From Candidatus Magnetocorallium paracelense (GTDB taxonomy: Bacteria; Nitrospirota; Thermodesulfovibrionia; Thermodesulfovibrionales; Magnetobacteriaceae): a DNA stretch of 63,214 bases. The notes beneath the pieces were generated by a model. The model did no database searches, was not told the origin of the DNA, and worked only from the letters and a program-made list of their open reading frames with translations. Below, piece by piece: positions 1,220 to 61,300 of this stretch. The stretch is taken from NCBI GenBank assembly GCA_029001845.1, contig JAREWP010000032.1, positions 1-63,214 on the forward strand, written 5' to 3'. Made by a program: the position numbers and the translations under genes. How positions within the stretch are numbered: position 1 is the stretch's first letter; each line of letters starts with the position of its first letter.

Positions 1220-1496
1220 TACCCTGTCCCCTCATTAATCTTTAAGTGAGCATCTGTTGACAGCGTTTTTAAAAACCATTTTAAATCGGTCCGTAGAACA
1301 GGCGTCCCGCCTGTCCTACGGGGGTGCTTTATCAGGAACTCCCCTGCAAACCTGCATTAAAAAATGAAAATTCCCTGTATGCGATCAAATGGCAAACTTG
1401 AACCCGCGCCCGGGCTTAACTTTCACTGTTTTGTGGAGACTCGCAGAGTCATGGACGTTTATCCCTAACATCCTGTTAATCCTGTCTATAAAAAAT
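1220..1496. other. Intergenic gap with a small hairpin and a family 3 relict
   Basis: I see no gene here. A near-perfect palindrome at 1291-1321 has 14-bp arms CCGTAGAACAGGCG / CGCCTGTCCTACGG with one mismatch and a 3-nt loop. Related sequence containing GGACAGGC and ACGCCTG recurs near 29.93-30.03 kb. Around 1430-1465 a reverse-oriented relict resembles the head of repeat family 3 (GTCATGGACGTTTATCCC). Confidence 0.6.
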
Positions 1497-3623: not shown

Positions 3624-3923
3624 TTTACTTTTTTAAACCGTAATTACTAGGGATGAGATTCTTGAGACTTTATCAGAGAAGCCTTACGATAACTTTCAAA
3701 TGTCAGTTGCCTGACTAAAAGGATAAACATCCAATCTCCTCCGGCTCACCACAAAGAATGACAATTTATAGTGATGGAAGAAGATGATATATTTTAACCA
3801 CGAAGGTCAAGAAGCACGAAGTTAAAAAAAATTCTCTTTCTTCATGGCCTTCGTGATCTTCGTGGCTATTTAAAATTAGACATAACAGGGTCTGTTTTCG
3901 GGACAAAGAAGTTTATCACTAAT
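3624..3923. other. Intergenic gap with degenerate repeat relicts
   Basis: No gene seen. About 3720-3770 contains a decayed relict of the family 3 head (AAACATCCAATC, then CTCACCACAAAG). About 3797-3868 holds an imperfect inverted repeat built on ACCACGAAGGTC and CTTCGTGGCT, a type of dispersed intergenic filler. Confidence 0.5.
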
Positions 3924-39493: not shown

Positions 39494-39508
39494 ATAGGAC
39501 CTCCCTAT

Positions 39509-39575
39509 CAATACCATTAACTTAAGGGGTGAAGCACCTTCCGACGGAAGCAGGTCATGTCTGAGAAGGCGGAGA
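39509..39575 (+). repeat. Family 1 element, left half only
   Basis: Starts CAATACCATTAACTTAAGG and follows family 1 to about GTCTGAGAAGGCGG, then diverges. It sits 15 bp upstream of the binding-protein start codon on the opposite strand, close to its ribosome site and possibly its promoter. Confidence 0.85.
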
Positions 39576-39682
39576 GAAAGGGAACAATTCCATCTGCCTT
39601 ACCTTTGCAATGTTTTGCCTGTTTGAACAGGATTCGTATTCGTCGGAAGGAATCTCTTTGAAATTCTTTTAAAAAAACATCC

Positions 39683-39840
39683 AATTATGGAACAAACGTC
39701 CATGAACCTCCGGTTCACTACAAAGCATGAAAACAGTTAGAATGAGCAGTGATGTCCTGATGAAACAAGGTGGTGTTTGAGTTTGCGACTTTCAGCTTGT
39801 TTTGGCAGGACATTGCTGCTGCTTCCGGCACGATGCAGGT
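39683..39840 (+). repeat. Family 3 element, copy a (decayed hairpin)
   Basis: Head ACAAACGTCCATGAACCTCC, then ACTACAAAGCATGAAAAC, then hairpin arms at 39740-39769 and 39796-39825 that pair at 23 of 30 positions, loop GTGGTGTTTGAGTTTGCGAC. It forms a direct tandem with copy b, with a repeat period of about 158 bp. Confidence 0.8.
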
Positions 39841-40010
39841 TATTTTCGGGATAAACGTCCATGGCCCTCCGGGCCACCACAAAGCATGAAAATGGTTAGA
39901 AGAAGCAGTGATGTCCTGCCAGAACAAGGTGGTGTTTGAGTTTGCGAGTTTCAGCTTGTTCTGGCAGGACATCACTGCTTCTTCCGGTGCGCATTCGTTT
40001 ATTTACGGAG
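39841..40010 (+). repeat. Family 3 element, copy b (perfect 30-bp hairpin)
   Basis: Head ATAAACGTCCATGGCCCTCC, GGGCCACCACAAAGCATG, then a hairpin: left arm 39899-39928, right arm 39955-39984, perfectly complementary over 30 bp, with a 26-nt loop. The tail is CCGGTGCGCATTCGTTTATT. Translated frames through it look like proteins only because the arms are long. Confidence 0.92.
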
Positions 40011-40058
40011 TAAAATCACCATTATGTAAGACAATGGGAACAACTCTCCAAATATTTC

Positions 40059-40862
40059 TTACCATGCCGTCCAGCCTCCGTCGACAATGATATTTTGACC
40101 GGTCACATATGCTGACAAATCACTGGCAAGATAGGCAACAGCTCCTTTTAAGTCTTCTTGTTTCGCCATACGCCCCAAAGGCGTTCTCTTTATATATCGA
40201 GAAACAAATGTCTTATCCTGAGAGCGGCTCACCCCCCCGGGACTAATTGCGTTTACTCTCACCTTTGGGGCCAAAACAGTCGAAAGGTACCGTGTTAATT
40301 GCAAAACCCCTCCTTTACTCGCGCCGTAGGCTGCCGGGTTCCCCATATCCGTGCCTTCATAAAGCTGCATGTCGGGCCCAACTGTTCCATAAATGGAACT
40401 GACATTAATAATGGATCCATGCTTTGATTTAATGAGCATTTTGGAGCATGACTGAATGAGTACAAAGATAGAAGTAAGATTTATTTCTAAGGCTTTTCTC
40501 CACGTATCTGCACTTTGTTTTTCAAAAGCAACAGTCCAACCTTCCAAATCTGATATTCCACTCAAGGCGGCCGTGGTCACAAGAATATCTAACCTCCCAA
40601 ATTTCTTGGCGACCGCAGAGCTGATGGAACGTACCTCTTCCTCGACAGACAAATCAACAACGAGCGGAAAGGCGTCTGCCTTATATTTACGGACTAATCG
40701 TTTAGCCTTTGCATTGCATGCAGAACGATTGACATCCACCAGAACAATGTGTGCTCCCATCTCGGCTAAAGTCTCAGCCATAACAAAACCTAAAAAGCCG
40801 GCCCCGCCCGTCACGACAGCCACACGCCCCTTTATATTCATTAATTGTTTTATCGATTTCAT
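40059..40862 (-). CDS. Short-chain dehydrogenase/reductase of a sugar pathway
   Basis: A 267-aa classical SDR. Cofactor motif TGGAGFLG near the N-terminus, acidic VDVN after strand 2 (NAD preference), catalytic S (NVSSIYG) and YGASK, and C-terminal SPGGVSRSQ and IIVDGGW. It probably oxidises or reduces a sugar or sugar-nucleotide intermediate. It overlaps the CMP-sugar synthetase by four bases (ATGA), and that gene overlaps the Gfo/Idh/MocA gene by four, so all three form one operon read from 42567. A similar SDR plus cytidylyltransferase pairing occurs in ptmA/ptmB flagellin-glycosylation loci; I do not claim orthology. Confidence 0.9.
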   Translation of the reverse strand: MKSIKQLMNIKGRVAVVTGGAGFLGFVMAETLAEMGAHIVLVDVNRSACNAKAKRLVRKYKADAFPLVVDLSVEEEVRSISSAVAKKFGRLDILVTTAALSGISDLEGWTVAFEKQSADTWRKALEINLTSIFVLIQSCSKMLIKSKHGSIINVSSIYGTVGPDMQLYEGTDMGNPAAYGASKGGVLQLTRYLSTVLAPKVRVNAISPGGVSRSQDKTFVSRYIKRTPLGRMAKQEDLKGAVAYLASDLSAYVTGQNIIVDGGWTAW

Positions 40863-41569
40863 GTGATCGAAAACTTTCGGTTCATCATAAATTCTGCATA
40901 TTCAAAATCTAATTCTGTATCAATGTCCAATGATCGCTCTTTGGGAACGATTACCATTTCTGTTTTTCCATCAAAAACAGCATTACCTTCCAAAATAAAC
41001 TTTGCTTTCGCCGCATAAGCCACTGTTGTCACATCATAAACATGTGGGGCTTCTTGTCTCTGTCTAATAGTTTCCTTCACCTTTTTAACCACGCTTAAAT
41101 TACCCTCTGCATCACGTTCCACCATATTATAATAAGGATTTCTTTCACACTCCCTCACAGTTACAACGACATCGGCATCGGTATCCAATAATTTATCAAG
41201 GCATCTATCCACATCACGTGCTTCTCTTAATGGCGACGTCGGTGGTATTGAAACCAAAACATCCACTTCTCGACCGGCTACTTTACTGACCTTGGAAATG
41301 GCATGCTTCCAAGATAAAAGCTCCGGTGAATCATCTCGTGCTAATTCAGAGGGCCTCATAAAAGGAACTTCCGCCCCATACTCTTTGGCAATAGAGGCAA
41401 TTTCCTGATCATCAGTAGAAACAATAAGTTTATCAATCTTTGAGACAGCCAGACCTGCTTCAATGGCATAAGCAATGAGCGGCTTTCCACATAAAAGCTT
41501 AACATTCTTTCCGGGAACTCCCTTAGATCCCCCACGGGCAAAAATAGATCCTAAAACAAATGGTTTCAA
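40859..41569 (-). CDS. Acylneuraminate cytidylyltransferase family (CMP-sugar synthetase)
   Basis: A 236-aa nucleotidyltransferase: N-terminal FARGGSKGVPGKN is the CTP-binding loop, with K for binding, followed by CGKPLIAYAIEAG and KLIVSTDDQEI; later VLVSIPPTSPLR and SLDIDTELDFEYAE (metal-binding DxDxxxD-like end). It activates a nonulosonic acid such as a sialic, legionaminic or pseudaminic acid to its CMP form. The start is TTG at 41569, its TTGA overlapping the stop of the Gfo gene. Flanked by SDR and Gfo genes, it points to surface glycan or flagellar glycan synthesis. Confidence 0.9.
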   Translation of the reverse strand: MKPFVLGSIFARGGSKGVPGKNVKLLCGKPLIAYAIEAGLAVSKIDKLIVSTDDQEIASIAKEYGAEVPFMRPSELARDDSPELLSWKHAISKVSKVAGREVDVLVSIPPTSPLREARDVDRCLDKLLDTDADVVVTVRECERNPYYNMVERDAEGNLSVVKKVKETIRQRQEAPHVYDVTTVAYAAKAKFILEGNAVFDGKTEMVIVPKERSLDIDTELDFEYAEFMMNRKFSIT

Positions 41570-42567
41570 AATTTCACCACTCTTCCTTCCTTAGCCGAAC
41601 ACTTTGCAGAAAGAGCGATTTCCACAACACGCTTTCCATCATGCCCTGTAATATCCGGTTGTTTTTTATTCTCCACGCAGTCAAAGAAATGCTGCATTTG
41701 ATGAGTAAACATTTGATTATAAGCATTCACATTATTATTGTCGTATATTTTAACCGGCTCACTATTTCCCTTATTAAACAAACGAACATAGTGATCATGG
41801 TCAAACTTCACCTCGATCGTCCCTTCTGTACCAACAATACGGCAGGAACGACGCCCCCCATGATCGAACATATCTAAATGAACATTCCCAATCGCCTTAT
41901 TTGCAAAGCGCAAATTAATCTCAGCCACATCTTCGACATCAATTTCAAGATCACTTATGGTATCAACGCACGCACTTACTTCAACCACCTCACCGACGAG
42001 CCAACGCACATAATCTAATTCATGGCTCAATTCAAAAATAACTCCGCCTCCTAAATCTGAACGTGCGCTCACATTTTTACGATAATCACTTCCAGGTCTC
42101 CAGTCGGGTAAAAAGCGTCCCACCTCAGCCCTAATCGACAAAATGCGTCCAATCTTCCCTGCATCGAGCATTTTCTTTACAACCTTAAGGGGTTCTAAAA
42201 AACGCAAAACATATCCGACCATCAATACTAAATTTCTTGCTTTACATTCTTGAATCACCGCGTCAACACCTTCAAGAGTTGAAGATACAGGTTTCTCGAT
42301 AAAGAGATGTTTGCCTGCTTTTGCAAAAAATAAGGCCTTTTGCATATGAAAAGGAGCGGGGTTCGCGATGACAACAATATCCGCATTCCAGTTTAAAGAT
42401 TCCGTCTCATCAAAAAAAAATTCACTCACCAAATCCGTGTCATCATCCAAGTCAGAAGACTTTGTATGTTCCCTGAGAGCAGCTACCTCAATATTCGCAT
42501 CAATGCCTTTAATATTTCTTAAATGCCGCCGTCCAATACTTCCTAATCCAACAATTAAAATTCTCAT
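41566..42567 (-). CDS. Gfo/Idh/MocA family oxidoreductase
   Basis: A 333-aa NAD(P)-dependent sugar dehydrogenase: Rossmann start MRILIVGLGSIGRRHLRN, then NADIVVIANPAPFH, the EKPVSS catalytic lysine strand (EKP), and GGGVIFELSHELDYVRWL typical of the second domain. It acts on a sugar or sugar nucleotide, probably upstream of the CMP-sugar step. It is first in the three-gene operon; the ATG at 42567 has no obvious ribosome site. Base use resembles its two partners. Confidence 0.9.
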   Translation of the reverse strand: MRILIVGLGSIGRRHLRNIKGIDANIEVAALREHTKSSDLDDDTDLVSEFFFDETESLNWNADIVVIANPAPFHMQKALFFAKAGKHLFIEKPVSSTLEGVDAVIQECKARNLVLMVGYVLRFLEPLKVVKKMLDAGKIGRILSIRAEVGRFLPDWRPGSDYRKNVSARSDLGGGVIFELSHELDYVRWLVGEVVEVSACVDTISDLEIDVEDVAEINLRFANKAIGNVHLDMFDHGGRRSCRIVGTEGTIEVKFDHDHYVRLFNKGNSEPVKIYDNNNVNAYNQMFTHQMQHFFDCVENKKQPDITGHDGKRVVEIALSAKCSAKEGRVVKF

Positions 42568-42643
42568 GATGATTATTTTACAAATTTAATCCCAAAAGTC
42601 TAATTTACGACACGCCTTAAATATGATAAATATCTCAACGATG

Positions 42644-43309
42644 TCAATCTACCGAGCTTGATCGTCTTTTTTCCGGACAATATCTGTGTGATAATAGTTG
42701 GAATAAGGCTTCTTTGTCAAGAAATTGACCTGATATGTAATTCATTTCTGTTTTAGCCGGATAAAAATCGAAATCCTCTAATAGAGGAAAATTTTTATAT
42801 ATTCTCAGCAGCACCTTATAAGCTTCCTGCTCATTCCCTTGTTCAATAAATATGGGATAGATTGCTGTCAGGCACTTATATGGGATTCGTACGCTTTATA
42901 ATTGCCCCGACGATGCTTTTAATGACATTTTCTCTAATATAGGGCTTTATTAATACACCGTCAATATAATCCTCAAGTGCCTGAACGATCGTCGTATTCT
43001 CCATCTTTTCGGTAGTTTAAAAAAACATCTTTTCGCCATTATTGGGATCTCTTATCATCTTTACCTTCTGCAAAAGCTCTATACCGCTCTTTCCGCTACA
43101 TTCCAATTCACATAAGATGAAATCATGCTCTCTATGGCAGTATTCCTTAACTGCTTCATCGATGTCCTGTGAATAGGTAATGGTTTTTTATTGTCTATTC
43201 CTAATTCGCATAAGAGGGATGACAATGTGGTGCGATAGAATGAGTTCGGATCTACTATCAACGTTCTTTTTGATTGAAAAAATGTTATTAATATAGTCTT
43301 GGGATCCAT
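42644..43309 (-). pseudogene. Decayed response regulator (REC plus C-terminal domain)
   Basis: Read from ATG 43309 the frame gives KRTLIVDPNSFYRTTLSSLL, the start of a receiver domain. A shift near 43190 is needed to continue as HDFILCELECSGKSGIELL, where the phospho-acceptor aspartate reads E. A stop interrupts (GEKMFF-stop), then DGVLIKPYIRENVIKSIV follows with the conserved K-P. After another stop and shift comes a helical tail, IYPIFIEQGNEQEAYKVLL to GQFLDKEALFQLL. Several disruptions plus the lost aspartate show a dead gene related to the receivers of region 1. Confidence 0.75.
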
Positions 43310-43773
43310 ACCAAAAACTCTCCATAGGTAAAAAATGTTGTAACTATTTAGTCGTTTATAAATGAAATTGAGCGCAAAAAAGCAACAATTTTTTTCAATA
43401 TCAAAATCCAAAGTTCAAATGTCAAAAAAAGTTCACAGGGATCTGAGATCAGAGGTCAGTTTTTCACAACTGTTGTTTTAACTGACCCCTGACCCCTGAC
43501 CTCTGTCCTCTTGTTTTTTTGACATTTAGTCATTTGGATTTGTTCCCTGATCAGGTCAGGGACAAACCCGATATTTTGATTTTGTCATTTGTCATTAAAA
43601 CGTTCCGAAAATAAGGATTTTTGTCATAGAAGGACATAATTATCATATTGCATGCTTTGTGGCGAACCGGAGGTTCATGGACATTTATCCTGTTAATCCC
43701 GTTAAAAGACTCAGCATTGAACAATTTTAAAAATATATTTGATTTCGTCGCCTTTTTATGATACAATGGTTTT
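43310..43773. other. Intergenic gap with inverted repeat and family 3 relict
   Basis: No gene seen. 43430-43502 carries an inverted repeat of GATCAGAGGTCAG and CTGACCCCTGACC words. 43640-43700 is a reverse-oriented relict of the family 3 head (GCATGCTTTGTGGCG, GTTCATGGACATTTATCC). TTTGACATTT/AAATGAC words match 4.46-4.65 kb. Confidence 0.6.
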
Positions 43774-44307
43774 ATGAATCCCCAAGGGAACGACAGAAGG
43801 GTATCGGTCACGAAATACGGAAAAGCGATATGTACGATTCTGGCTGTTCTGTTTGCTGTCATTCTTCTCATCGCTTTCCTTGGTTATAAGACCGGCAATC
43901 CTGTGGGATATCGTTTTATTCCTTTCATTCTTCTTATTGTCAGCTTCGGAATAACAGCCTTTTTCTTAATTATCTTTCTTTTACTGCGTGTTATGGGACC
44001 ATTTAACAGATTAATGGAAGAGATCGGCATTATATTGGCCGGTGAATACAGAAGGCGTCTCTATCTGAGAGAGAATGACGTTGCCCTGATCAGGTCTTTT
44101 ACTGAAAATCTTAATATTTTGCTGGACAGGCTGGAAAAAAAGCATCGTTGCAATACAACTTTAACAGAAACATTACAGACAGAGACTAAAAAAATAACCG
44201 ACATGGCTGCTGACAATGATACATCGGACAGTGAATTACGAGAATCCCTTATCTCTTTCAAACAACGACTGAAGCTTGTATGCAAGGAAAACCCGGATCA
44301 TAACTGA
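43774..44307 (+). CDS. Small two-TM membrane protein with cytoplasmic coiled coil
   Basis: A 177-aa protein. TM1 is at about 18-38 (AICTILAVLFAVILLIAFLG), TM2 at about 49-72 (IPFILLIVSFGITAFFLII). A HAMP-like stretch (RVMGPFNRLMEEIGIILAGEY) follows, then a charged coiled-coil tail to the end. The layout resembles the membrane part of a sensor or chemoreceptor without its signalling domain. No ribosome site is clear at the ATG. I do not recognise a family; it stands between a dead regulator and repeats. Confidence 0.65.
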   Translation: MNPQGNDRRVSVTKYGKAICTILAVLFAVILLIAFLGYKTGNPVGYRFIPFILLIVSFGITAFFLIIFLLLRVMGPFNRLMEEIGIILAGEYRRRLYLRENDVALIRSFTENLNILLDRLEKKHRCNTTLTETLQTETKKITDMAADNDTSDSELRESLISFKQRLKLVCKENPDHN

Positions 44308-44406
44308 CTCGCATCGATCCCCCTCTTTTTTTCCCTTCTTTTATCCCTGCTTTGATATAATACGTTGAGTCCTTTATTTAATTGCATAGTTATTTTGTAA
44401 CTACTC

Positions 44407-44554
44407 AGGTATACAAGGCTGAAGACTGAAGCAAATTATCTAATGGCTTGGGAGTGTCAGCCAATAAAAAACGTAAAGTTTTATCAATAACCCATGTTTT
44501 ACCTAATAGTCTTCAGCCTACAGTCTATACACCTAACCCGGCATAGCCGGAACC
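44407..44554 (+). repeat. Family 4 element, copy b
   Basis: Starts AGGTATACAAGGCTGAAGAC, contains TGGCTTGGGAGTGTC and ACCTAATAGTCTTCAG, and ends AACCCGGCATAGCCGG. The bases just before it, GTAACTACTCAGGT (overlapping its start), recur exactly at about 62174 downstream of the IS66 transposase gene. Confidence 0.75.
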
Positions 44555-44586
44555 AAAGAGGTTTGGGGAATTTCTTCGAAATTCCC

Positions 44587-44718
44587 TTTAAGTCTCCTCT
44601 CCCCTTGAGGGGAGAGGATTAAGGTGAGGGGTGACGGTGGAGAAGCGTTAACCTGTCGAGTACCTTGCCGCACCCCCTCACCCCACCCCTCTCCCCCTTC
44701 AAAGGGGAAGAGGGAGTA
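44587..44718. repeat. Family 6 palindromic repeat (CTCTCCCCTTGAGGGGAG type)
   Basis: Left part CTCTCCCCTTGAGGGGAGAG with AAGGTGAGGGGTG, right part CACCCCCTCACCCC with CTCTCCCCCTTCAAAGGGG. Each half is itself a small palindrome and the two halves are inverted to each other. A dispersed non-coding repeat in the leader of the reductase gene at 44741. Confidence 0.65.
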
Positions 44719-44740
44719 AAAGAGATGTAAAGGAGTCGTT

Positions 44741-45316
44741 ATGAAGGTTGTTGCCTTTTTGGGAAGTCCCAGAGTACAGGGAAATACGGAAATTCTTTTA
44801 AAAGAAGCGCTTAAGCCGATTAATGAGGCCGGTCATGAGACTACTCTGATCAGGCCCGATCAGATGAATATCTCTCCCTGTCTGAACTGCGGCGCATGTG
44901 ACGCATCGGGAGAATGCATTATTAATGACGAAATGGACGAAGTTTATGAACTCATACGCAAATGCGATAGATTTATCATGGCTTCACCTATATACTTCGC
45001 CGGACTAACTGCCCAGATTAAGACAATGATCGACAGATGTCAGTCTGTCTGGTGCGAGAAATTTCTCTTGAACAGAGATATTCCCTCCGGCCCTGAGGGG
45101 CGAAAGGGGCTTCTGATAATGGTGGGCTCCCATGATAAAGAAATGCAGTATAAATGTGGTAATACCACTGCAGCCGCGTTTTTCAGAACAATAAGCGTTC
45201 CCGAGCATCAGACATTATACTACACCGGAATCGATGCAATGGGTGAAGTGGATAATCGTCCCGATGCATTTAAAGAGGTATTCGAGGCAGGGCAACGCCT
45301 AGTAGCGAAAGTCTGA
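44741..45316 (+). CDS. Iron-sulfur flavoprotein-like NADPH-dependent FMN reductase
   Basis: A 191-aa flavodoxin-fold protein. The N-terminal LGSPRVQGNTEILL loop binds FMN phosphate; CLNCGACDASGEC (C47, C50, C53, C59) fits the compact cluster motif of iron-sulfur flavoproteins; MASPIYFAGLTAQIKTMIDR is the family core. It probably transfers electrons between a reductant and a one- or two-electron acceptor in anaerobic metabolism or oxidative defence. AAAGGAG is well placed before the ATG. A family 6 repeat fills the upstream region. Confidence 0.88.
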   Translation: MKVVAFLGSPRVQGNTEILLKEALKPINEAGHETTLIRPDQMNISPCLNCGACDASGECIINDEMDEVYELIRKCDRFIMASPIYFAGLTAQIKTMIDRCQSVWCEKFLLNRDIPSGPEGRKGLLIMVGSHDKEMQYKCGNTTAAAFFRTISVPEHQTLYYTGIDAMGEVDNRPDAFKEVFEAGQRLVAKV

Positions 45317-45464
45317 ACACCTAAAGGAATGAACATGTGAATCTTTTGGGTTCCGTACTTTTTCAAATTCAGTAAAGGGCGTCTGATTTGTAAATAGGAG
45401 CGTATGCAAAATCAAGTAGTGCTGAACTTGATTCAGTAATGATATCAATGTGCAACCTTTAAAT

Positions 45465-45598
45465 CAATACCATTAACTTAAGGGGTGAAGGACCTTCCGA
45501 CGGAAGCGGGTCATGTCTGAGAAGGCGCAGCGAAGCGGAGCCTTCGAGTTTAGCCGATGAAGGCGGATGGTGCTTTACTCCTTAAGTTAATGACATTG
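45465..45598 (+). mobile_element. Family 1 134-bp element with 10-bp target duplication
   Basis: Same length and ends as the copies at 17930 and 22334. Perfect direct repeats ACCTTTAAAT flank it (45455-45464 and 45599-45608). It sits in the leader between the flavoprotein and the glutaredoxin gene. Confidence 0.92.
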
Positions 45599-45653
45599 AC
45601 CTTTAAATCACAACTTATTTCTGACCTGACCCTAAATATAAAGGAGATAAATA

Positions 45654-45914
45654 ATGGCAAAAAAAGAGACTGTATTATTTGCATTAAGTACATGCCCTGC
45701 ATGTAAAAAGACAAAGGATTTTTTTACTGATAACAATATAGATCATCTCCTTGTAGAGGTGGATCTTATAGACATCGATTCAAGAGACAAGATGCTGGCT
45801 GAGCTTAAAAAGCATAACCCCAAGGAGACATTTCCCACAATCGTAATTAACGGCGGTGAAAAGGTAATCGTAGGCTATGACAAAAAGGAGCTGGCAACAA
45901 TCTTCACCACCTAA
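45654..45914 (+). CDS. Glutaredoxin-like thiol oxidoreductase
   Basis: An 86-aa thioredoxin-fold protein with the CPAC redox pair at C14/C17 (LSTCPACKKTKDFF), the cis-proline region ETFPTIVING and closing GYDKKEL. It is smaller than classical glutaredoxins and similar to single-domain Grx/NrdH-like forms that lack other domains. It reduces disulfides with glutathione or a thioredoxin reductase; the electron donor is not visible. AAAGGAG is eight bases before the ATG. A family 1 element occupies the region 55 bp upstream. Confidence 0.9.
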   Translation: MAKKETVLFALSTCPACKKTKDFFTDNNIDHLLVEVDLIDIDSRDKMLAELKKHNPKETFPTIVINGGEKVIVGYDKKELATIFTT

Positions 45915-46075
45915 GGCAATTACTGACAACAGGGGAGGCGCAGGCAGACTTTCGTCCGTATTGACAGGGACGAACCTGTGTCTGTTCGTCCGGCCCCGTA
46001 CCGGTACTCCGATGCCGTTGATCGTTTGCCTTCGCCGGGTCAGACACGCAGGTCCGCCCCTACAGTTTTTGTGGG
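45915..46075. other. Spacer with short inverted-repeat filler
   Basis: GACAGGGACGAACCTGTGTC and neighbouring GGCGCAGGCAGAC / GTCAGACACGCAGGTCCGCC words form weak palindromes. No gene seen. Confidence 0.5.
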
Positions 46076-46252
46076 CGTCTATTTTCGGAGCAAACGTCCA
46101 TGGCCCTCCGGGCCACCACAAAGCATGAAAATCGTTAGAAGGAGCAGTGATGTCCAGCCAAAACAAGGTGGTGTTTGAGTTTACGAGTTTCAGCTTGTTT
46201 TGGCTGGACATCACTGCTCCTTCCGGTACGCATTAGTCTATTTACAGGATAA
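46076..46252 (+). repeat. Family 3 element, copy c (perfect 30-bp hairpin)
   Basis: Head CAAACGTCCATGGCCCTCC, then GGGCCACCACAAAGCATG, then arms at 46138-46167 and 46194-46223, perfectly complementary over 30 bp, loop of 26 nt. Compared with copy b the arms differ at positions 5, 19 and 24, each change matched on the other arm, while the loop differs at one base. The tail is CCGGTACGCATTAGTCTATT. Confidence 0.92.
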
Positions 46253-46314
46253 ACACTTTTTAGCGAATACTCATTTTTAAGCTTTAGAATATATATCTTA
46301 CAGGAAATATACTA

Positions 46315-49329: not shown

Positions 49330-52300
49330 ATGAAAAAACTGCTAAATATACAACCAACCACAAGTTTGACAATAAAAGAGACCTCTACAAATGACATTGC
49401 AATTATAGGGATCGGTCTAAAACTGGCTGATTATGAAAACCATGATGATTTTTGGGCCGATTTAATCTTGGCAGTCGACCGGATACGCACCATACCTGAG
49501 CAAAGAAGGAAAGACGCGGATGCAATCATCAGGTTTAAAGGAGGAATGCCGGGCAATATCCGCTACAGGGAGATGGCTTACCTGGACAGGATAGACGAGT
49601 TTGACTGCAGGTTTTTTAACATTTCCCCAAAAGAGGCCGAACTAATGTCGCCGGATCAGCGGTTGTTTATGCAAACCGCATGGAAAGCCCTGGAGGACGC
49701 CGGATATGGAGACGCCAAACTGAAAGGCGCTAAAGTGGGTGTTTTCATGGGAATGGGATCGGCTAACGAATACGCGGAACTGGCCCGCCAAATATGCCGG
49801 GACGATGAGATTCGCGCTTTACTTAGCAACGTACCTTCCAACACGGCGGCCCGTCTTTCATACATCCTGAATTGGCGCGGGCCTGCTTTGATGGTTGACA
49901 CGGCCTGCTCGTCCTCTCTTGTCGCCGTTCATTTAGCGTGCCGCGCATTAAGGGCAAATGAGTGCAAGCTTGCTTTGGCGGGTACGGTAAAGACAGTTAT
50001 TTTACCGGGGGAACGGGAGAAAATAGAGATCGAATCGCCGGACAACAGAACCAGAACCTTTGACGACGCCTCGGCCGGTACCGGAGCAGGAGAAGGAGTA
50101 CTTGCAATACTTTTGAAGCCCCTTGAGAGGGCCATACATGATGAAGATCCGATTTATGCGGTAATAAAAGGGAGCGCCGTTAATCATGACGGTTCTTCCG
50201 CCGGTATGACCGTGCCAAACGCCGAAGCCCAAGCCGAGCTCATCGACCTGGCATGGAAAGAAGCCCGCATTGATCCCCAAACGGTCCGGTTCATTGAAGC
50301 CCACGGCACGGCCACCAGGCTGGGCGACACTATTGAAATTGAAGGCATTACAAAGGCCTTTGTAAAATATACGGATGAAAAGCAGTTCTGCGCAGTGGGG
50401 TCGGTGAAGTCAAATTTTGGACATCTCGACAACGCCGCCGGACTAATCGGTCTGGTAAAAGCGGCTTTAAGTCTTCAAAAAAGAAAATATCCGCCTCTGG
50501 TTCATTTTAATAAACCCAACCGCAACATCCCCTTTAAAGACTCTCCCGTATTTCCGGCTGCTGAACTTGTTGAATTGTATGATGCAAAAGGGGTGATTCG
50601 ATGTGGCGTCAGCGCTTTTGGATTAAGCGGAATTAATTGTCATCTGGTGATGCAGGAACCGCCGTCAATAAAAAGAACCATAAACACTCCCAAAAGGTTT
50701 CACCTCTTTGAAAGAAAACGGCACTGGTTTAAACTGCCCTCACGCCCCTATGAAAAAGATCCGGGGTCTTTCGTATTTATCAGACAACAACTTGCCGAAA
50801 TGCCGGACAGGATTGTTTACAGGGCCGGCCTTGATCATGAACTGGATTGGCTGTTAAATGAACATAGAATAGGGGGCGAGCCCTGCATGCCAGGGGCCGC
50901 TTACTTTCAGTTGTTCATGGAAGCCGCAAATAAGCAGGGTCGTAATGGTGTGATAGAAGCTGAAAACCTATTGTGGGAGAACCTGTTGACCATAACGCCT
51001 GAAGAGCTTAGGACGTCAAATAATAAGACTACGATAATATTGGAAGATAAGAATAAAAACCTCTCCCTTTCAATTGTGCGTAAACAACCAAACGGGGTTT
51101 GGACTCAATATGCCTCGGCAAGGATCAAAGCCGCAGCACAGCAAAAAACCAATCTTCTGGATATTGACGAAATTAAAGATCGGTGTATAAAGAAGACAAA
51201 GGAGGGGAAAACATCCCCAAACACCGAACAAACACTTGTAAATACCGGCGAGCGGTGGAATTGTAAAAAGGATATCTGGGAAAATGAAAAAGAACGCCTC
51301 CAGCTTATAAGATTACATGATGATTTTAAAAACGATCTTGACCGGTTTGATTATCATCCCCCAATGCTCGACGCCGCATTAAGTTCCGGTTTACGGGAAC
51401 CCGGATTTATACCAATGTCCTGCGGCCGGGCAAGGTTATACGGACCTGTAACAAATGAAATTTACAGTTACATAAAAACGCCCGAAATCAAATCATCTGA
51501 AATACTGACCTACGATGTCGTTATCACCAATGGGGACGGTAAAATTATTGCGGAATTCAATGATCTTACATTTAAGCGCGTTCAAAGAGAGTGGCCGTTG
51601 TTTGACGTAACCTGGATTCAGGAGAAAACGCGGATTTCACACACCCCGGAAGGTCTTTGTGTTATAGGAGAAAACGAATCATTGAAATCGCCCGACACTT
51701 TTGAAATTCCACGCACCGATGATGAACGCCTGGCCCTTATTCACAGACTTGAAAAGCTGAAACCGGCAGGGATAATATATGCGCCGCCGGTACAAGACCG
51801 GCCGTGCGCCTCACTTGAAGATATTGACGCAAGGTTGGAATCAGGCATTTATAATTTGTTTCGTTTCGTAAAATCCATGATCAACCATAAATATCCACAT
51901 ATGCTGCAAATAGTGGCGGTCGGGAACAATACCTATCCGGTAACGGGTAAGGAAACCTTTTTACATCCGGAAAACGCGGCCCTGGAGGGGCTTACAAAAG
52001 TAATAAACCGTGAGTGCGACAATATTGCCTGCAAATACATTGACATTGATGAATCAACAACACTCCGGGATATTGTAAGCGAGTTTGCCGGTGCATTCGA
52101 TTCGGCCCCTTCGGTGGCTTTTCGTAACGGAGTCAGATATATAAAAGACTATAAACAGATTCAAGCGATTGAGCCTAAGATAAAAATAAAAGACCAGGGC
52201 GTTTATCTCATAACCGGCGGACTTGGCGGCATAGGCATTGAAATCGCAAAATACCTGTCCGGCCAAAACCGGGTAAAGCTGGCTCTAATCGGCCGCACCG

Positions 52301-55300
52301 GTTTGCCAACCCGTGAAACATGGTCTGAAACAGTAAAAGAGGAGTCAAAAGAGGCCGGTAAAATTCGCTCTCTCCTTGAAATAGAACAAAAGGGTTCGGA
52401 GGTTCTTGTTCTTTCAGCCGATGTATCCAATCCGGATCAAATGGAAAAAGCCGTAAGCGGAGTGCGTGAAAACTTCGGGTCCATAGACGGGGTTATACAT
52501 TGCGCCGGAATAGCCGGTCAGGGGTTTATCTTTAGAAAAAATGATGGTGATTTTATAAACGTGCTCAAACCTAAAGTACAGGGGGCCTGGATATTAGACC
52601 AGATAACCCGCCGGGACGATCCGGACTTTTTTATACTCTCCTCGTCCTTAACGGCCTTAACAGGTGCGCCGGGTCAGTCGGACTATACAGCGGCGAACTC
52701 CTTTTTAGACGCATTTTCAGATTTTAGAAACAAAGAAGGCGGAAAAACATTGTCTATTAACTGGCCCCCGTGGAAAGAAACGGGAATGGCATTTGACTGG
52801 GGAGTTGATCAAACCGGATATGCCGTTAAAACCCGTGACGCAACCAGCGCCTTAAACAAGTTACTTTCCTATGACGGCCCCAGGGCTGTAATGATTCCTC
52901 CGGGTATGCATATAAAAGAGATATTACAATATTCAGACACCAACGCATGCAGTGAATCTGTAACGGTTGAAAAAAACAACGACGTAACTCTTTCAGGCAG
53001 GGATAACGGTATTTACAGCGACCTTGAGAAGACGATAGCTCAGGTATGGTGCGAAGTATTGGGACACAGGGAAATAAGCATTAAAGATGATTATTACGAA
53101 CTGGGCGGAGACTCGCTTGACGCAAATAAGATACGGGATAAAATCGGCGAAAAGCTCAACATAAAAGCGTCAATTGAAGATATATTTAATTACACCACCT
53201 TAGAAGCATATGCGTCGTTTCTTGAAACAAAACACAGGCCCGACCAAGCCCCGGCCCAAATTAATCCCATAGGCAAACACCCTTTTTACGAGGCGTCAGC
53301 GGCCCAGCGCCGATTGTACATCATATGGGAGCTTGCAAAAGAGAGCACCGGATACAATCTGCCGTGCATTCTCTATATCAAAAATAGGGTTGACGCTGCA
53401 CAATTAAAAACCGCCTTTGAGAAGCTTATCGCCCGTCACGAATCATTACGTACCTCTTTTAAGATGGATGAAGACCGGCTTGTGCAGGTTGTGCCGGACC
53501 ATGTTGATTTTGTTTTAACGGAAACGATTATCCATACCTCGGGAATTGAAGCATACGCCCGTAAATATATAAAACCCTTTGATCTTGTAAAAGCCCCTTT
53601 GATAAGGGCCGAACTCGTTACCCTGGAAACGGGTGAGAAATTACTTTTCATCGATGTACACCATATTGCGGCCGACGCATTGTCGCTTCAGATTATTTTT
53701 AATGAATTGAACCTCTTATATAAAAATGAAGACCTGCCGGAACTGAAAATACAGTACAAAGATTTTGCCCATTGGCAAAACAGGTTTTTTGAGTCAAAAG
53801 AGTTTCAGTCACATGAAGCGTATTGGCTCAATCAATTTGAAAAAGATATTCCAACACTTGAATTTCCTTATGATTTTCATCGGCCTTCGATGATAACATA
53901 TGAAGGAGCAGTAACCAAATTCACCGTTGATAAAGAACTTTTTCTAAAAGTACGCCGATTTTCAGCCGGCAATGAAACCACTCCGTTTATGGTTTTTCTA
54001 ACCGCTTTTTTCATTCTCTTCCATAAATACAGTCGGCAAAGGGACATCATAATAGCCATTGCCGTACTGGGCCGCAATATTCCCGAAGTGCAAAATATGG
54101 TCGGCATGTTTATTAATCACCTTGCCATAAGGGCCAATCCGGAAGCCGATAAAAGTATAAAAGAGTTTCTTGAAGAGGTTAAGCAGCTTACGGTAAACGC
54201 TTACGCCCACCAGGATTACCCTTTTGACCGGTTAATTCAAAAGCTGAATCTGCCCAGGGATATGAGCCGCGAACCGTTAACGGGCATAACATTCTCATAT
54301 ATGAATTTTGAAAAGACGGCGCCCGATATGACAGGACTCCGGCTGCGGCCTTATGAAGGTATTGTAAAAGATTCATCAAAATTTGACATCTCTATATTCG
54401 CAACAGAGTTTGACGACAGCGTTGTTTTTGCAGTTGAATACTATTCGGCTCTTTTTAGCGCCGAAACCATGGAACTGTTGGGTTCCCGATTTTTAAGAAC
54501 CCTTGAAGAACTCGCTGTAAGGGAAGATGCGACAATAGGCGGTATTGACTTTCTACTGAAAGGAGAGCGAGAAGAAATCTTACAAGGATTTAATCATAAC
54601 GCCTTAGAACTTCCTACAGACAAATGCATACAGGAACTCTTTGAAGAGCAGGCTGAAAAGAGGCCGGATGCCGCGGCCCTTATTTTCAACCACAGCGAGA
54701 TGACGTATCACGAACTGAACTCCCTGGCCAACCGAACCGCCCGTTATTTAAAGAGAATGGGCGTCGGGCCCGAAACGATCGTGGGAGTTTATATGGAACG
54801 TTCTTTGGAAATGGTTACAGCGGTTTTAGGTATTCTAAAAGCAGGTGGCGCATACCTGCCGCTGGATATTGATTTCCCTAAAGAACGCCTTACTTTTATG
54901 ATAATCAACGCCGGGGCTTCCCATCTCATGACTGTATCAAAATTAAAAGAGAATCTGCCGGAGACAAAGGCAAAAACGGTTTACATTGATAAAGAGATAT
55001 TGGCAAAAAAGCCGGGAGAACCAGACCTTGAAAACCCGGTATGTGAAACAAAACCGTCAAACCTTGCCTGTGTCATGTATACTTCAGGTTCCACTGGAGA
55101 GCCCAAAGGAACCTGCGTTTTACAACGCAGCGTTGTACGACTGATCAACAATCCAAACTATGCCTCATTACAGCCTGATGATGTTTTTATACAAATGTCC
55201 CCTTTTGCCTTTGATGCATCGACCTTTGAAATATGGGGCAGCCTTTTAAACGGGGCCGCACTCGTCATTTTACCTCCCTACAAACATTCACTGGGGGAAC

Positions 55301-58300
55301 TGGGAAGTTTCATAAAAGAAAATAAGGTTTCCATCATTTTTATAACTTCAGGGCTTTTTAACCTCATGATTGAAGAGAATATCGGAGATTTAACCACAAT
55401 AGGCCAATTGCTGACAGGCGGGGAAGTCATGTCGATCCGACACGCCCAAAAGGCATTGGACCGGCTCGGGGATTGCCGCCTTATTCATGTGTACGGACCC
55501 ACTGAAAACACAACATTTACCACTTATTGCGAACTGAGGGGGACTCAAATTCGCGGTTCCGCTTCCATCGGTAAACCGGTTACCGGTACAAAGGTATACA
55601 TTCTTGACGCCGAACTTCAACCTGTTCCCGTTGGAATGACGGGAGAGCTTTATACCGGCGGCGCCGGCTTAGCCAGGGGCTATTTAAAGAGGCCCGATTT
55701 AACGGCCGCACAATTTATTCCCAATCCATTCGCTTCGGTTCCTGGAGAAAGGCTTTATAAAACCGGTGATTTGGCCCGTTTTCTGCCCAACGGGAATATA
55801 GAATTTATAGGCCGAAGGGATAACCAGGTTAAGATTCGGGGTTTCCGTATCGAACTTGACGAGGTGGAATCAAATATAAGACTCCATCCAACCGTGCGCG
55901 ACACCGCCGTTGTGATCCATAAAAGAAATCAAAGGGAAAAACTATTGGCCGCTTATATTGTTCCCGGACAGGGTTTTGACGTGACTCAATTAAAAGCGTT
56001 TCTAAAAAACAAACTGCCCGATTATATGATGCCCTCGGCTTTTAAAACCATTGAGAAATTGCCCCTTAAGGCCAATGGTAAGGTGGACCGCCGGAGGCTT
56101 TCGGAAACTCTTCCCGATTTTTCACTGCCCCGGGAAAACTATGAACAACCCTCAACCCCTGAAGAAGAAATCGTCGCGCAAATCTGGGCTGAAATCCTGC
56201 ACGTCCAACGCGTCGGACGGCGCGACAACTTCTTTGAACTGGGCGGCCACTCATTGCTTGCAACTCAGGCAATATCAAGAATGCGAAACATATTTAAAAT
56301 GGAACTGCCCTTAAGACGTCTCTTTGAAAGCCCCACACTTGAGGAATTTTGCCGTGGAATTTTAATCGGAGAGACCCGGATCGAGAGTGAAGAGCTGAAA
56401 CCTTTAGAGCGACTCGGAGAATTTCCCCTTTCATTTGCCCAGGAGAGGCTGTGGTTTTTAGACAGGTTAGTACCGGACAGCCCTTTCTACAATATCTCAC
56501 GCTCCCTTGTCCTGAAAGGAGAGCTAAAGGCAGATATCCTGGAGAAAACGTTACAGGCCCTTGTCAATCGCCACGAGACGCTTCGCACCTCATTTGCCTT
56601 AGACGCCAAAGGCAACCCGTTACAAATTATAGAACCGGAATTGAAGCTGGAAATACCGATTATCGACTTAACGGGTTTCTCCGGCAGTCAACAGTACGAT
56701 GAAGTAAAAAAACTGGCAAAGGAAAACGAAAAAAAGATATTTGATCTGACAAAAGCGCCTTTGATAAGGGCTTCGCTTGTAAAACTGTCGAAAACCGAAC
56801 ACCTTCTTTTAACAACAATACACCACATCATATCGGACGGTTGGTCGATTGGCGTTTTTAATAAAGAAGCCACGGCCCTCTACAACGCCTATTGTTCCGG
56901 AAAAGAATCCCCCCTGTCCGGGCTTGAGATACAATACGCCGACTTCAGCACCTGGCAGCGCCGTTGGCTTGGCAAAGGTATTTATGACGCACAACTGAAA
57001 TATTGGAAAAAACAGTTAAAGGGCCTGCCCCTTTTACATCTGATTACCGATAAACCCAGACCCGCCGTTGCAACGTATAACGGCGCAATTAAAGAAATTG
57101 AGATACCTTCTGATGTAACAAAGGCATTGAAGGAATTGAGTCTGCAGTCCTCGACAAGCCTGTTTATGACGCTCATGGCCGGATTAACGGTAGTTTTTAA
57201 CAGATACACCGGCCTGGACGACATCGTTTTGGGATCACCCATTGCAAACAGGGTTCGCAGGGAGCTTGAGCCCTTAATAGGCTTTTTTGTAAACACCCTT
57301 GTTATGCGGTGCGATTTGTCGGGCGATCCAAAATTTGGCGAACTGATGAACAGGGTGCGTAAAACGGCGCTGGAGGCCTATGAAAATCAGGATTTGCCCT
57401 TTGAACATCTCGTTGAGGAACTTCAACCTGAAAGAGATATGAGCCGCAATCCATTGGTACAGGTAATCTTTGCCCTGCAAAACGCACCTATGAAAGAGAT
57501 CGATTTTGACAATGTAAAAATAGAACCATTGAGGAATGAAACCTACATGGTGCGATGCGATATGGAATTCCATCTCTTTGAAACCGGCGATTCAGTTAAA
57601 GGTTATCTATTGTACAATACCGATCTCTTTGAAGCTTCAACCATTGTACGCATACTCTCACATTATCGAAACATTCTCAAAGAAGCGGCGGATAATCCCC
57701 ATAAAAAAATATCAGCTTACGAAATCATCGATAGTTTAGAGAAAGGCAAACTGCTTTTTGACTGGAACCGTACAGAAACAAATTATGAAAAAGATAAGAC
57801 CATTGCAGATTTATTTGAAGATCAAGCTGCACGTGCTCCTGACGCCGTTGCCCTTGTCTATGAAAAGGAGCAGCTCACGTATAAAGAGTTAGACTCCGAA
57901 TCGTCTAAGCTTGCCGGGTACTTGCAGGAAATCGGCGTAAGGCCGGACGTTGTGGTTGCCATTTGCATGGAACGTTCCTTTGAAATGATCATAGGAGTTT
58001 TAGGTGTTCTTAGGGCCGGCGGTGCATATCTTCCCCTTGACCCTGAATACCCTGAGCAGAGATTGGAATATATGCTGAATGACTCCGGGGCCGGGGTGTT
58101 GTTAACAAACTCGGGTTTAGCCGGAAGACTGCCCGCAGCATCGGCAAAAAAGGTATATATAGACAAAATACGGGTGGAGTTGGAAAAACGAAGCGCTCAA
58201 AATCTTGTACGCAATGCAGCACTTGATAATCTGGCCTATGTGATTTATACATCCGGTTCCACTGGAAGGCCGAAAGGTGTTATGGTGGGACACCGTGGTC

Positions 58301-61300
58301 TGATGAGTCTGCTTACGTCGAATATGAAAGCCTATCATCTTGAGCCGGACGACCGCGTACTGCTGTTTGCCTCTTTCAGTTTTGACGCTTCTGTCTGCGA
58401 CATTGCATTTACGTTAACAAAGGGGGCCTCGCTTCAATTAATATCCGCCGAGAAATTAGTACCTGACGAGAATTTTATTGATCTAATAAATGATTGTTCC
58501 ATCACCTACGCAGGTTTAACCCCTTCTTTCCTGGCTGCTCTACCTCAAAAAGAAACGCCCTCTTTAAAAAAGATCATCGTCGCCGGAGAAGCATGCACCC
58601 GGGAGTTGGCAGCAAAATGGTCGAAAGGTCGTACATTTATCAACGCTTACGGCCCCACCGAATCTACGGTTTGCGCCGCTTTAACCGAATGCGAAGATAA
58701 CGGTAAGCCGCCGACCATCGGCAAGCCCATACCCAACACGCAAATCTATATTTTAGACCGCAATCTCGATGTCGTCCCAATCGGCGTACCGGGCGAACTG
58801 CACATTGGGGGCGAAAGCACGGCCCGCGGATACATGAACCGGCCCGGACTGACGGCCGAAAAATTTATTCCAAATCCTTTTAACCACAATCCCGGGGCCA
58901 GACTTTATAAAACAGGCGATCTGGCCCGCTATCTGGACGATGGAAACATCGAATTCCTCGGCCGCATGGACAATCAGGTAAAAATCCGGGGGTTCCGCAT
59001 TGAATTAGGTGAGATCGAATCCCTGTTGTCCGGACTGCCGGAAGTACAAAAAAGCGTAGTAGTGGATCACAAAGATTCCATGGGCAATAAAAAGCTGACC
59101 GCCTATGTTGTACCGGATTATAAAGGTATGGAATCTCAGGCTGAAAAAGAGGAACACCGAAGCGATATGGTTTCAGAGTGGCGGACCATTTACGACGAAA
59201 ATTACAGCCGAACCGCTGAAATGGAAAAATCACTTTTTACCGGCTGGAACAGCAGTTATACCGGCGAACCGTTAGATGAAAAAGATATGCTTCAGTGGGT
59301 TGAAAACACGACCTCCCAAATACTCTCCCTTAAACCAAAGAATCTGCTTGAAATAGGATGCGGTCTCGGCTTGCTTTTAAGAGAAATCGCCCCAAAGTGT
59401 CAAACCTATGTTGGAACAGATTTTTCAAAACCTGTTATTGATTATCTAAGCAATATGCTTAAGAAGAACACCGCTTTATCAAAGGTTAAGCTTTTAAACC
59501 GTGGGGCCCATAACTTTGAAGGAATTGAAGACGAATCCTTTGACGTTATCGTACTAAACTCGGTTGTTCAGTATTTTCCCGATGCAGACTATCTTTTAAA
59601 GGTATTGGCAGACTCCGTAAAGAAACTGAAACCCGGGGGCTGCCTGTTTATAGGAGACCTTCGCAACTATGCCATGTTAAAAGCATTTCACGCATCCCTA
59701 CAGTTGTTTCAGGCCGGCCCATCAACCCCGCTGAAGGAATTAAACCATAGGATTCATGAAAACATGCGAAACGAACAGGAACTGCTGATACAACCGGATT
59801 TCTTCCATGAATTGATCAAAGAGATCCCTGAACTGAATCACCTCAGGATAGAGCCGAAATTCGGAAATTACAACAATGAGTTAAGCCGGTACAGGTACGA
59901 CGTTTTTCTCTGGAAAAACATGGATGTAAGTAAAAAAACAGAGCACCCCGAATGGATCGACTGGAAGGGCATGGATATAACGCGGATTCACGATTTGCTT
60001 ACATCAAAAAAGGAAAAACCGGTGGCCCTAAAAACCATAACCAATTCACGCACAGAAGAAGACGATCGAATTCTGCACGGACTTGCAAAGGCTTTTGAAG
60101 ATGAAACCGTTATACAATTAAAGAGGAAAGCAACGGGAGTTCGGAACAAAGGCATTGAACCCGATGATTTGCGCCAAATAAGTAAAGAGCTCTCAATGTC
60201 CATTGAATTTCAGCTAAACAACGATTTCTCTTTTGACGTTGTTTTTATACCAAAGCCACTGGAAGGGAAAGTGAAATATACCCCTTGTTTTACAGAGGGA
60301 TATAAACCATTAAAATCAAGAGTAAACAACCCTGTTCACGCAAAACTGATCAGACAAATCGCACCAAAGCTTCGTAAACGTCTAAGCGAAAAACTTCCTG
60401 ACTATATGATTCCGTCGGCTTTTGTATTGATTGACTCCATACCGTTGAATCCCAACGGTAAAATAGACAAAAAAGCATTACCTGACCCGGGAAAGAGAGG
60501 AATCTCAGGTGGAACGGAACATATTGAACCGCGAAACAACATTGAAAAAAGGCTGGTTGAAATATGGCGTTCAATATTGGGCATAAATAAAATAGGAGTG
60601 AAAGACAACTTTTTTCAGTCCGGCGGACATTCCCTTCTTGCCGTCAGCCTGATTGCGAGAATTAACAAAGAGTTTAACACCGAACTGCCCCTGGCGGGCA
60701 TTTTTAAAAGCCCCACGATAGAGGATTTTACAAAACAGCTTGGGGAAAATCAAAAACCGGGCAAATGGACGCCTCTGGTTCCGGTACGTTCCGGCGTATC
60801 CAAAACACCTCTTTTCTGTTTTTATCCTGCCGGCGGCAATGTCTATTCATATAAACAATTGGGCGATCAATTGGACCATGATCAACCCTTTTATGTTTTA
60901 CAGGCTTATGGACTGGAAAAAGGCCAAACCCCTTTTAACAGAATAGAAGACATCGTGAACTATCAGCTTGACTGGATTCTGTCCGTCCAGCCTCAGGGCC
61001 CTTACTTTCTTTCAGGTTGGTCATTAGGCGGACTCCTTGCATTTGAAACTGCCCAAACATTGCTGGCAATGGGCCACAAGATAGCGCTGCTGGCCCTGTT
61101 TGACAGTTCCGCCAGAAAACCCGATGAATTTTTCAAACTCGCTAAAGCTGACAATGCGGGATTTATGGCAGGTCTCTATGCGGAATTTTTAACGTTACCG
61201 GTAGACAAACTGCGAACAATGAATGAAGAGGAACAAAATCTTTATATCGTAAATGAACTGAAACAAGCGGGATTAGTGTCCGATGATTTTGATTATGAAC

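Follow-up and report, generated by a model that had tools for sequence, protein, structure and literature searches.

PATEs and CGTC-tagged REPs are non-autonomous palindromic elements, which are thought to move as single-stranded DNA. The BOX elements of Streptococcus pneumoniae are small repeats in which the end modules are fixed and the middle varies. PATEs, the palindrome-associated transposable elements of Haloquadratum, have no terminal inverted repeats, target duplication or transposase gene, and are characterized by near-terminal palindromes at each end and by short core-deleted forms (PMC3119063). The CGTC-tagged REPs, in which the stem begins with A-T pairs, apparently lack a dedicated transposase (PMC3733652). 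In addition, template switching between hairpin arms is reported to give multiple matched changes and loop inversion (PMC8794818). Here we compare these systems with a family of hairpin-containing repeats in Candidatus Magnetocorallium paracelense, starting from a 63,214-nt stretch of contig JAREWP010000032.1 that was analysed as a whole (the window).

Results

Hairpins in the window and in the host genome

The initial annotation had reported two perfect 30-bp hairpins and a decayed third copy, and all three were recovered at the positions and with the pairing described (Table 1). Between the perfect copies, three arm positions are changed (5, 19 and 24), each change being matched on the opposite arm, and the 26-nt loop differs by one base (G/A), also as described. 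Considered as single-stranded DNA, the perfect hairpin of the tandem pair has a z of −11.9 relative to dinucleotide shuffles. The genome search with a hairpin covariance model that had been proposed there, carried out with a model from 18 hairpins, gave 143 matches on both strands, corresponding to ~73 places in the host genome (6.0 Mb, 103 contigs), indicating that the hairpins are not a product of chance. The hairpin constitutes just the middle part of a 159-bp repeat unit, the surrounding 159-174 bp being repeated too, and a DNA search found ~48 full units. The analyses below cover ~1.2 Mb around the elements and genome-wide searches. An attC-type integron site was rejected by eye, as there is no matching core.

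Table 1 Elements and element parts located in the window
Feature	Position	Strand	Remarks
H-type element, copy 1 of tandem pair	39697..39855	+	decayed arms (23/30); CGTCC start, GGGATAAA end
86-nt hairpin of copy 1	39740..39825	+	23/30 Watson-Crick pairs
H-type element, copy 2 of tandem pair	39856..40014	+	immediately 3' of the copy 1 RRYAAA end; GGAGTAAA end
Left end (LE) of copy 2	39857..39888	+	GTCCATG, 6-bp stem with TCC loop, CACCACAAAGCATG
86-nt hairpin of copy 2	39899..39984	+	30/30
Right end (RE) of copy 2	39997..40014	+	GTTTATTTACGGAGTAAA
H-type element, copy 3	46095..46253	+	directly 3' of the R-type right end (46077-46094)
86-nt hairpin of copy 3	46138..46223	+	30/30
R-type palindromic cargo remnant and right end	45951..46094	+	inverted palindromes GACGAACCTGTGTCTGTTCGTC, GGGTCAGACACGCAGGTCCGCCCCTAC; approximate limits; no intact left end seen
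K-type element, same ends	3728..3907	+	AACCACGAAGG...CTTCGTGG palindrome
Solo left end, truncated	43651..43683	-	
Left end of a further divergent element	1424..1457	-	

The window contains other features as well. A second repeat family, TCAATACCATTAACTTAAGG..., lies at 39507-39583 and 45463-45599; its second copy is closed by the inverted end CCTTAAGTTAATGACATTGA, which gives it the look of a MITE bounded by terminal inverted repeats. A palindromic repeat of another kind, CCCCTCACCCC.../GGGGTGAGG, lies at 44560-44740, and positions 49330-61581 hold a 4083-aa ORF for a hybrid polyketide synthase/non-ribosomal peptide synthetase with KS, DH and KR domains, two condensation and AMP-binding domains, a methyltransferase and a thioesterase.

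Constant ends and exchangeable cargoes

The unit is laid out as CGTCCATG-small hairpin-CACCACAAAGCATGAAAAT, the large hairpin, and GTYTATTTTCGGRRYAAA. The left end, i.e., CGTCCATG, a 6-bp stem (TGNNCC) with a TCC loop, and CACCACAAAGCATGAAAAT, has 93 genome copies within 3 mismatches, versus 0 for a reversed control. The right end GTYTATTTTCGGRRYAAA (consensus GTCTATTTTCGGRRYAAA) has 138 copies within 2 mismatches, versus 4 in the reversed control. We analysed 110 left ends for cargo and conservation: the C, G, T and C of the CGTC tag are conserved in 87, 89, 87 and 101, respectively, and the C, C and A of the CCA after the stem in 107, 98 and 106. The LE and RE consensuses have no inverted repeat common to the termini, and a GAAAAT/ATTTTC stem between LE and RE, possible in 78 of 87, belongs to the lowest-energy fold in only 23. 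The CACCAC of the left end is complementary over 6 bases to the GTGGTG of the hairpin loop, in 39856-40014 and in other H elements, and may reflect either a kissing contact or coincidence.

The same ends enclose at least three palindromic cargoes that are unrelated to one another. The H hairpin accounts for 56 of the 110 left ends, the R cargo (GTAGGGGCGAACCTGTGTGTTCGCCC with inverted GTAGGGGCAGACCTGCGTGTCTGCCCC, a pair of GTAG-tagged palindromes) for 14, and the K cargo (AACCACGAAGG...CTTCGTGGTT) for 12; minimal M forms of 71-75 bp, with almost no cargo, make up 6, and other cargoes or truncated copies the other 22. Complete H elements are 159-161 bp long. The left palindrome occurs in all copies; the right palindrome is cargo and is absent from the M forms. 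R palindromes are found in relatives as free GTAG-tagged pairs, and here between LE and RE, for example at loci L079 and L106 (R-/K-type cargo).

Insertion site, arrays and orientation

The elements lie directly 3' of (G)RRYAAA, with its As present in 40, 40 and 42 of the 48 copies that have a unique left flank, and the right end carries an RRYAAA of its own. To the right of this terminal RRYAAA, the DNA has no consensus among 70 copies. Within a copy the left and right RRY letters are independent, with 3 of 23 full matches where 3.1 are expected; target duplication was therefore rejected, and one motif belongs to the target while the other travels with the element. The elements are dispersed over ~88 sampled sites, and 87 of the 88 (counted as clusters) are outside ORFs/genes. 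All 13 arrays are head-to-tail, and in these the next element, including H behind R elements, begins right after the previous RRYAAA; this is most simply read as insertion where the previous element itself supplies the site. A search for empty sites in the ~1.2 Mb around the elements returned only self-matches of the arrays.

Relative to neighbouring genes, the orientation of the elements shows no bias. Relative to GC skew, 33 of 88 are positive (Wilcoxon p ~9e-5 for third positions, ~0.002 for intergenic DNA), with p = 0.07 only in a sign test using one value per locus. The bias is suggestive, and would agree, indirectly, with movement that is strand-specific and takes place at replication forks. 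It is directed towards the C-rich strand; if the leading strand is G-rich, this is opposite to top-strand insertion into the lagging-strand template, and would be compatible with an active bottom strand, on which LE is GTGG and a hairpin.

Distribution

The H hairpin was found in none of 18 other genomes of the family and, with the covariance model, in none of 395 other genomes of the phylum, and the left end did not occur in any of the order's 175 other genomes searched. A pattern scan of GTDB gave nine isolated matches in unrelated taxa, about the number expected by chance, and the rest of the unit was unmatched where read. Two matches in viral contigs were rejected as a single unrelated sequence upstream of a short ORF, and the hairpin loop has no viral match. 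The element family is genome-specific and without an enzyme of its own, with more than 100 copies into which different hairpins have been swapped.

Covariation of the hairpin arms

Across 61 copies, 1683 of the 1830 stem cells are Watson-Crick. The covariation extends beyond the three sites first noted: 11 of the 30 pairs have at least two Watson-Crick types, with 15 extra types in all. Pair 5 occurs as all four Watson-Crick pairs and is paired in 52 of 61 copies, whereas shuffling the arms among copies leaves 22 paired on average and 32 at most. A smaller hairpin set with slid controls gave the same result, and the small left hairpin has matched variation too. The initial annotation had named uncompensated mismatches in further copies as a sign against its reading; at least one non-Watson-Crick pair is indeed present in 46 of 61 copies, yet the covariation of the family is far above that of shuffled arms. 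The covariation is real.

Where two distinct arm pairs are separated by a single stem position, the change involves both sides in 16 cases and one side in 12. Many of the both-side changes are flips (C-G to G-C, T-A to A-T), which lack a paired intermediate. In two copies (C77:33166-33251 and C82:35304-35389), the loop is reverse-complemented between normally oriented ends. A tree of the non-arm columns implies many label changes, 21 for pair 5, although this tree is weak and the event counts are not firm. The G-T cells outnumber the A-C cells (107 versus 13), but a single tandem pair at positions 11-12 accounts for 76 of the 107, and counting by distinct position and type gives 12 versus 9; selection on the RNA of one strand, as suggested by the G-T excess, was rejected as not robust by distinct events. 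The tandem T-G/G-T wobble (5'-TG-3' opposite 5'-TG-3') occurs at two places in the stem, pairs 11-12 and 22-23, and is the commonest state at the former (36-40 of 61 copies).

This covariation is best read as arm-to-arm copying rather than as a conserved RNA: changes come in pairs and lack intermediates, purines and pyrimidines are flipped, and two copies carry an inverted loop. A structured RNA or mRNA regulatory hairpin maintained by selection, its stem having undergone true compensatory evolution, is very unlikely, although it would accommodate the strength of the covariation, arms twice as divergent as the loop, the intergenic location of the copies and a wobble excess that a plus-strand RNA would explain. 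That excess is mostly the one tandem wobble; moreover, unrelated palindromes stand in for the hairpin in other elements with these ends, purine-pyrimidine flips would have to pass through unpaired intermediates, the loop is inverted in two copies, many copies have decayed independently and to all stages, and the hairpin shows no orientation preference relative to neighbouring genes and is absent from all relatives searched. Rfam gave no match at gathering score, only sub-threshold ones, mostly to microRNA hairpin models. The "undescribed structured RNA" of the initial annotation is accordingly not supported, while two of its other options are: a "hairpin transposon" (as a mobile repeat that is non-autonomous and has a target and defined ends) and "arm homogenisation". 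It is possible, if doubtful, that the compensated changes are instead few and old and were spread among the copies by gene conversion of whole hairpins, not being renewed by copying between arms. The 15 extra Watson-Crick types over just 11 pairs and the chimaeric arms (G-G and C-C at pair 5) speak for this, whereas the loop inversions require exchange or switching inside a hairpin, and the many label changes on the weak tree also point to arm-to-arm copying.

Candidate transposases

The genome has five intact REP-type Y1 transposase genes, the paralogues L057, L059, L060, L061 and L062, flanked by a repeat, GGGGACAGG, that differs from LE and RE. The upstream DNA of four of the five shares a GGGACAGG motif, and these paralogues are a candidate for a separate RAYT/TIR system. 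Genome-wide, neither LE nor RE was found at the five intact Y1 genes, nor at the locus of the single intact IS91-type Y2 transposase gene (Y2_Tnp), and the genome has no Transposase_20 (PF02371) match that would indicate an IS110 transposase. An autonomous partner among the Y1, Y2 and IS110 families was thus rejected, as no gene carries LE or RE. Because no such transposase was found, we infer the mover, a single-strand HUH mechanism, from the anatomy of the element.

Two more specific assignments of the mover can be weighed. One is a form of the HUH reading in which the resident REP-associated tyrosine transposases mobilise the bottom strand, where the left end, like a classical REP, is GTGG and a hairpin; we regard it as conceivable but tentative. 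On that strand LE reads CATGCTTTGTGG-TGNNCC-GGA-GGNNCA, the bases of its CCAC complement being 89-97% conserved; the five Y1 genes are intact, bottom-strand activity would fit the orientation bias, and the R cargo itself consists of two GTAG-tagged palindromes in inverted arrangement. On the other hand, LE does not flank the Y1 genes, the subclass that they resemble has GGGG[AT][CG]A[CG] as its flanking repeat (Quentin et al., PMC6006769), and the conserved bases of LE reach well past GTGG. The other assignment, a rolling-circle (IS91/Helitron-like, Y2) non-autonomous element in place of an IS200/IS605/REP-type (Y1) one, is unlikely. It would suit the minimal form, in which a hairpin lies near one end only, with the target motif there and the same motif at the other end, as well as the head-to-tail arrays and the presence of an intact Y2_Tnp gene. 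However, neither LE nor RE accompanies that gene, and complete copies include no one-ended products with a variable right end, the H lengths being tightly confined to 159-161 bp.

Discussion

The element is PATE-like in its anatomy, with exchangeable palindromic cargo; it shows most of the PATE features and several of those of CGTC-tagged REPs. Like PATEs, it has neither terminal inverted repeats nor a target duplication and is too short for a transposase, and it shares with them a near-terminal palindrome, here at the left end, a short 5' target motif, core-deleted minimal forms and insertion beside other mobile elements. Unlike PATEs, it is bacterial, its left palindrome alone is constant while the inner one is exchangeable, and its ends match no IS605-type transposon; the host genome has no IS200/IS605 transposon with similar ends, as none of its intact Y1 genes carries LE or RE. 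The resemblance to CGTC-tagged REPs (Di Nocera et al. 2013, PMC3733652) includes CGTC at one end, a short stem-loop with a covarying stem that is followed by a CCA tail, a large number of intergenic copies and the failure to find a dedicated transposase. The stem and loop differ in size (6 bp and 3 nt here, versus 8-9 bp and 4-5 nt in the REPs), two unpaired bases separate the tag from the stem, and the stem-loop belongs to a longer unit that has a target and whose right end is fixed; in addition, the arrays are head-to-tail, whereas CGTC REP dimers are mostly head-to-head. We file the family as PATE-like because most PATE features are present, while the size of the CGTC stem and loop and the link to an IS605-type transposon do not fit.

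The family also touches on GTAG/GTGG REPs, REPINs and RAYT (TnpA-REP) systems, through the bottom strand of LE, where alone GT[AG]G stands 5' of the hairpin foot, the GTAG-tagged inverted pair in the R cargo and the resident RAYT-type genes. Unlike in RAYT systems, LE does not flank the RAYT genes, and the element has a long conserved flank and a separate right end. It resembles BOX elements in combining fixed end modules with a variable middle; its sequence is unrelated to theirs, and whole unrelated palindromes are exchanged. Several compensatory changes per event and loop inversion are shared with template-switch hairpin mutation, reported in RNA genes (PMC8794818), whereas here they affect a dispersed DNA repeat.

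Taken together, the hairpin is probably the inner, exchangeable palindrome of a small mobile element that is not autonomous, with movement of the HUH type and copying between its arms. The element would be moved in trans, as folded single-stranded DNA, by a tyrosine transposase of the HUH class, either IS200/IS605-like or REP-associated, and the terminal RRYAAA motifs would be the left and right cleavage sites. The compensated arm changes would mostly come from arm-to-arm copying, by template switching or by recombination within the hairpin during replication, which would perfect the stem and sometimes invert the loop, rather than from selection on an RNA.

We put forward more speculatively, as a picture that we would not yet expect to hold in full, a cassette-like single-stranded family in which constant ends capture and spread palindromes, including REP pairs. 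Its inner hairpins might be continually re-perfected by arm-to-arm copying in the course of the life cycle, and the transposase acting in trans might recognise the left hairpin and the RRYAAA site.

A strongly covarying stem around a conserved loop is usually taken to flag a new structured RNA; the present family shows that this pattern can also arise in a DNA repeat that is dispersed. The ~70 natural copies, two of them with inverted loops, form a set for measuring template switching. Finally, the family adds a CGTC-REP-like case in which the insertion site is exact and the ends are clear, and this bears on how CGTC repeats, which have no known transposase, spread.
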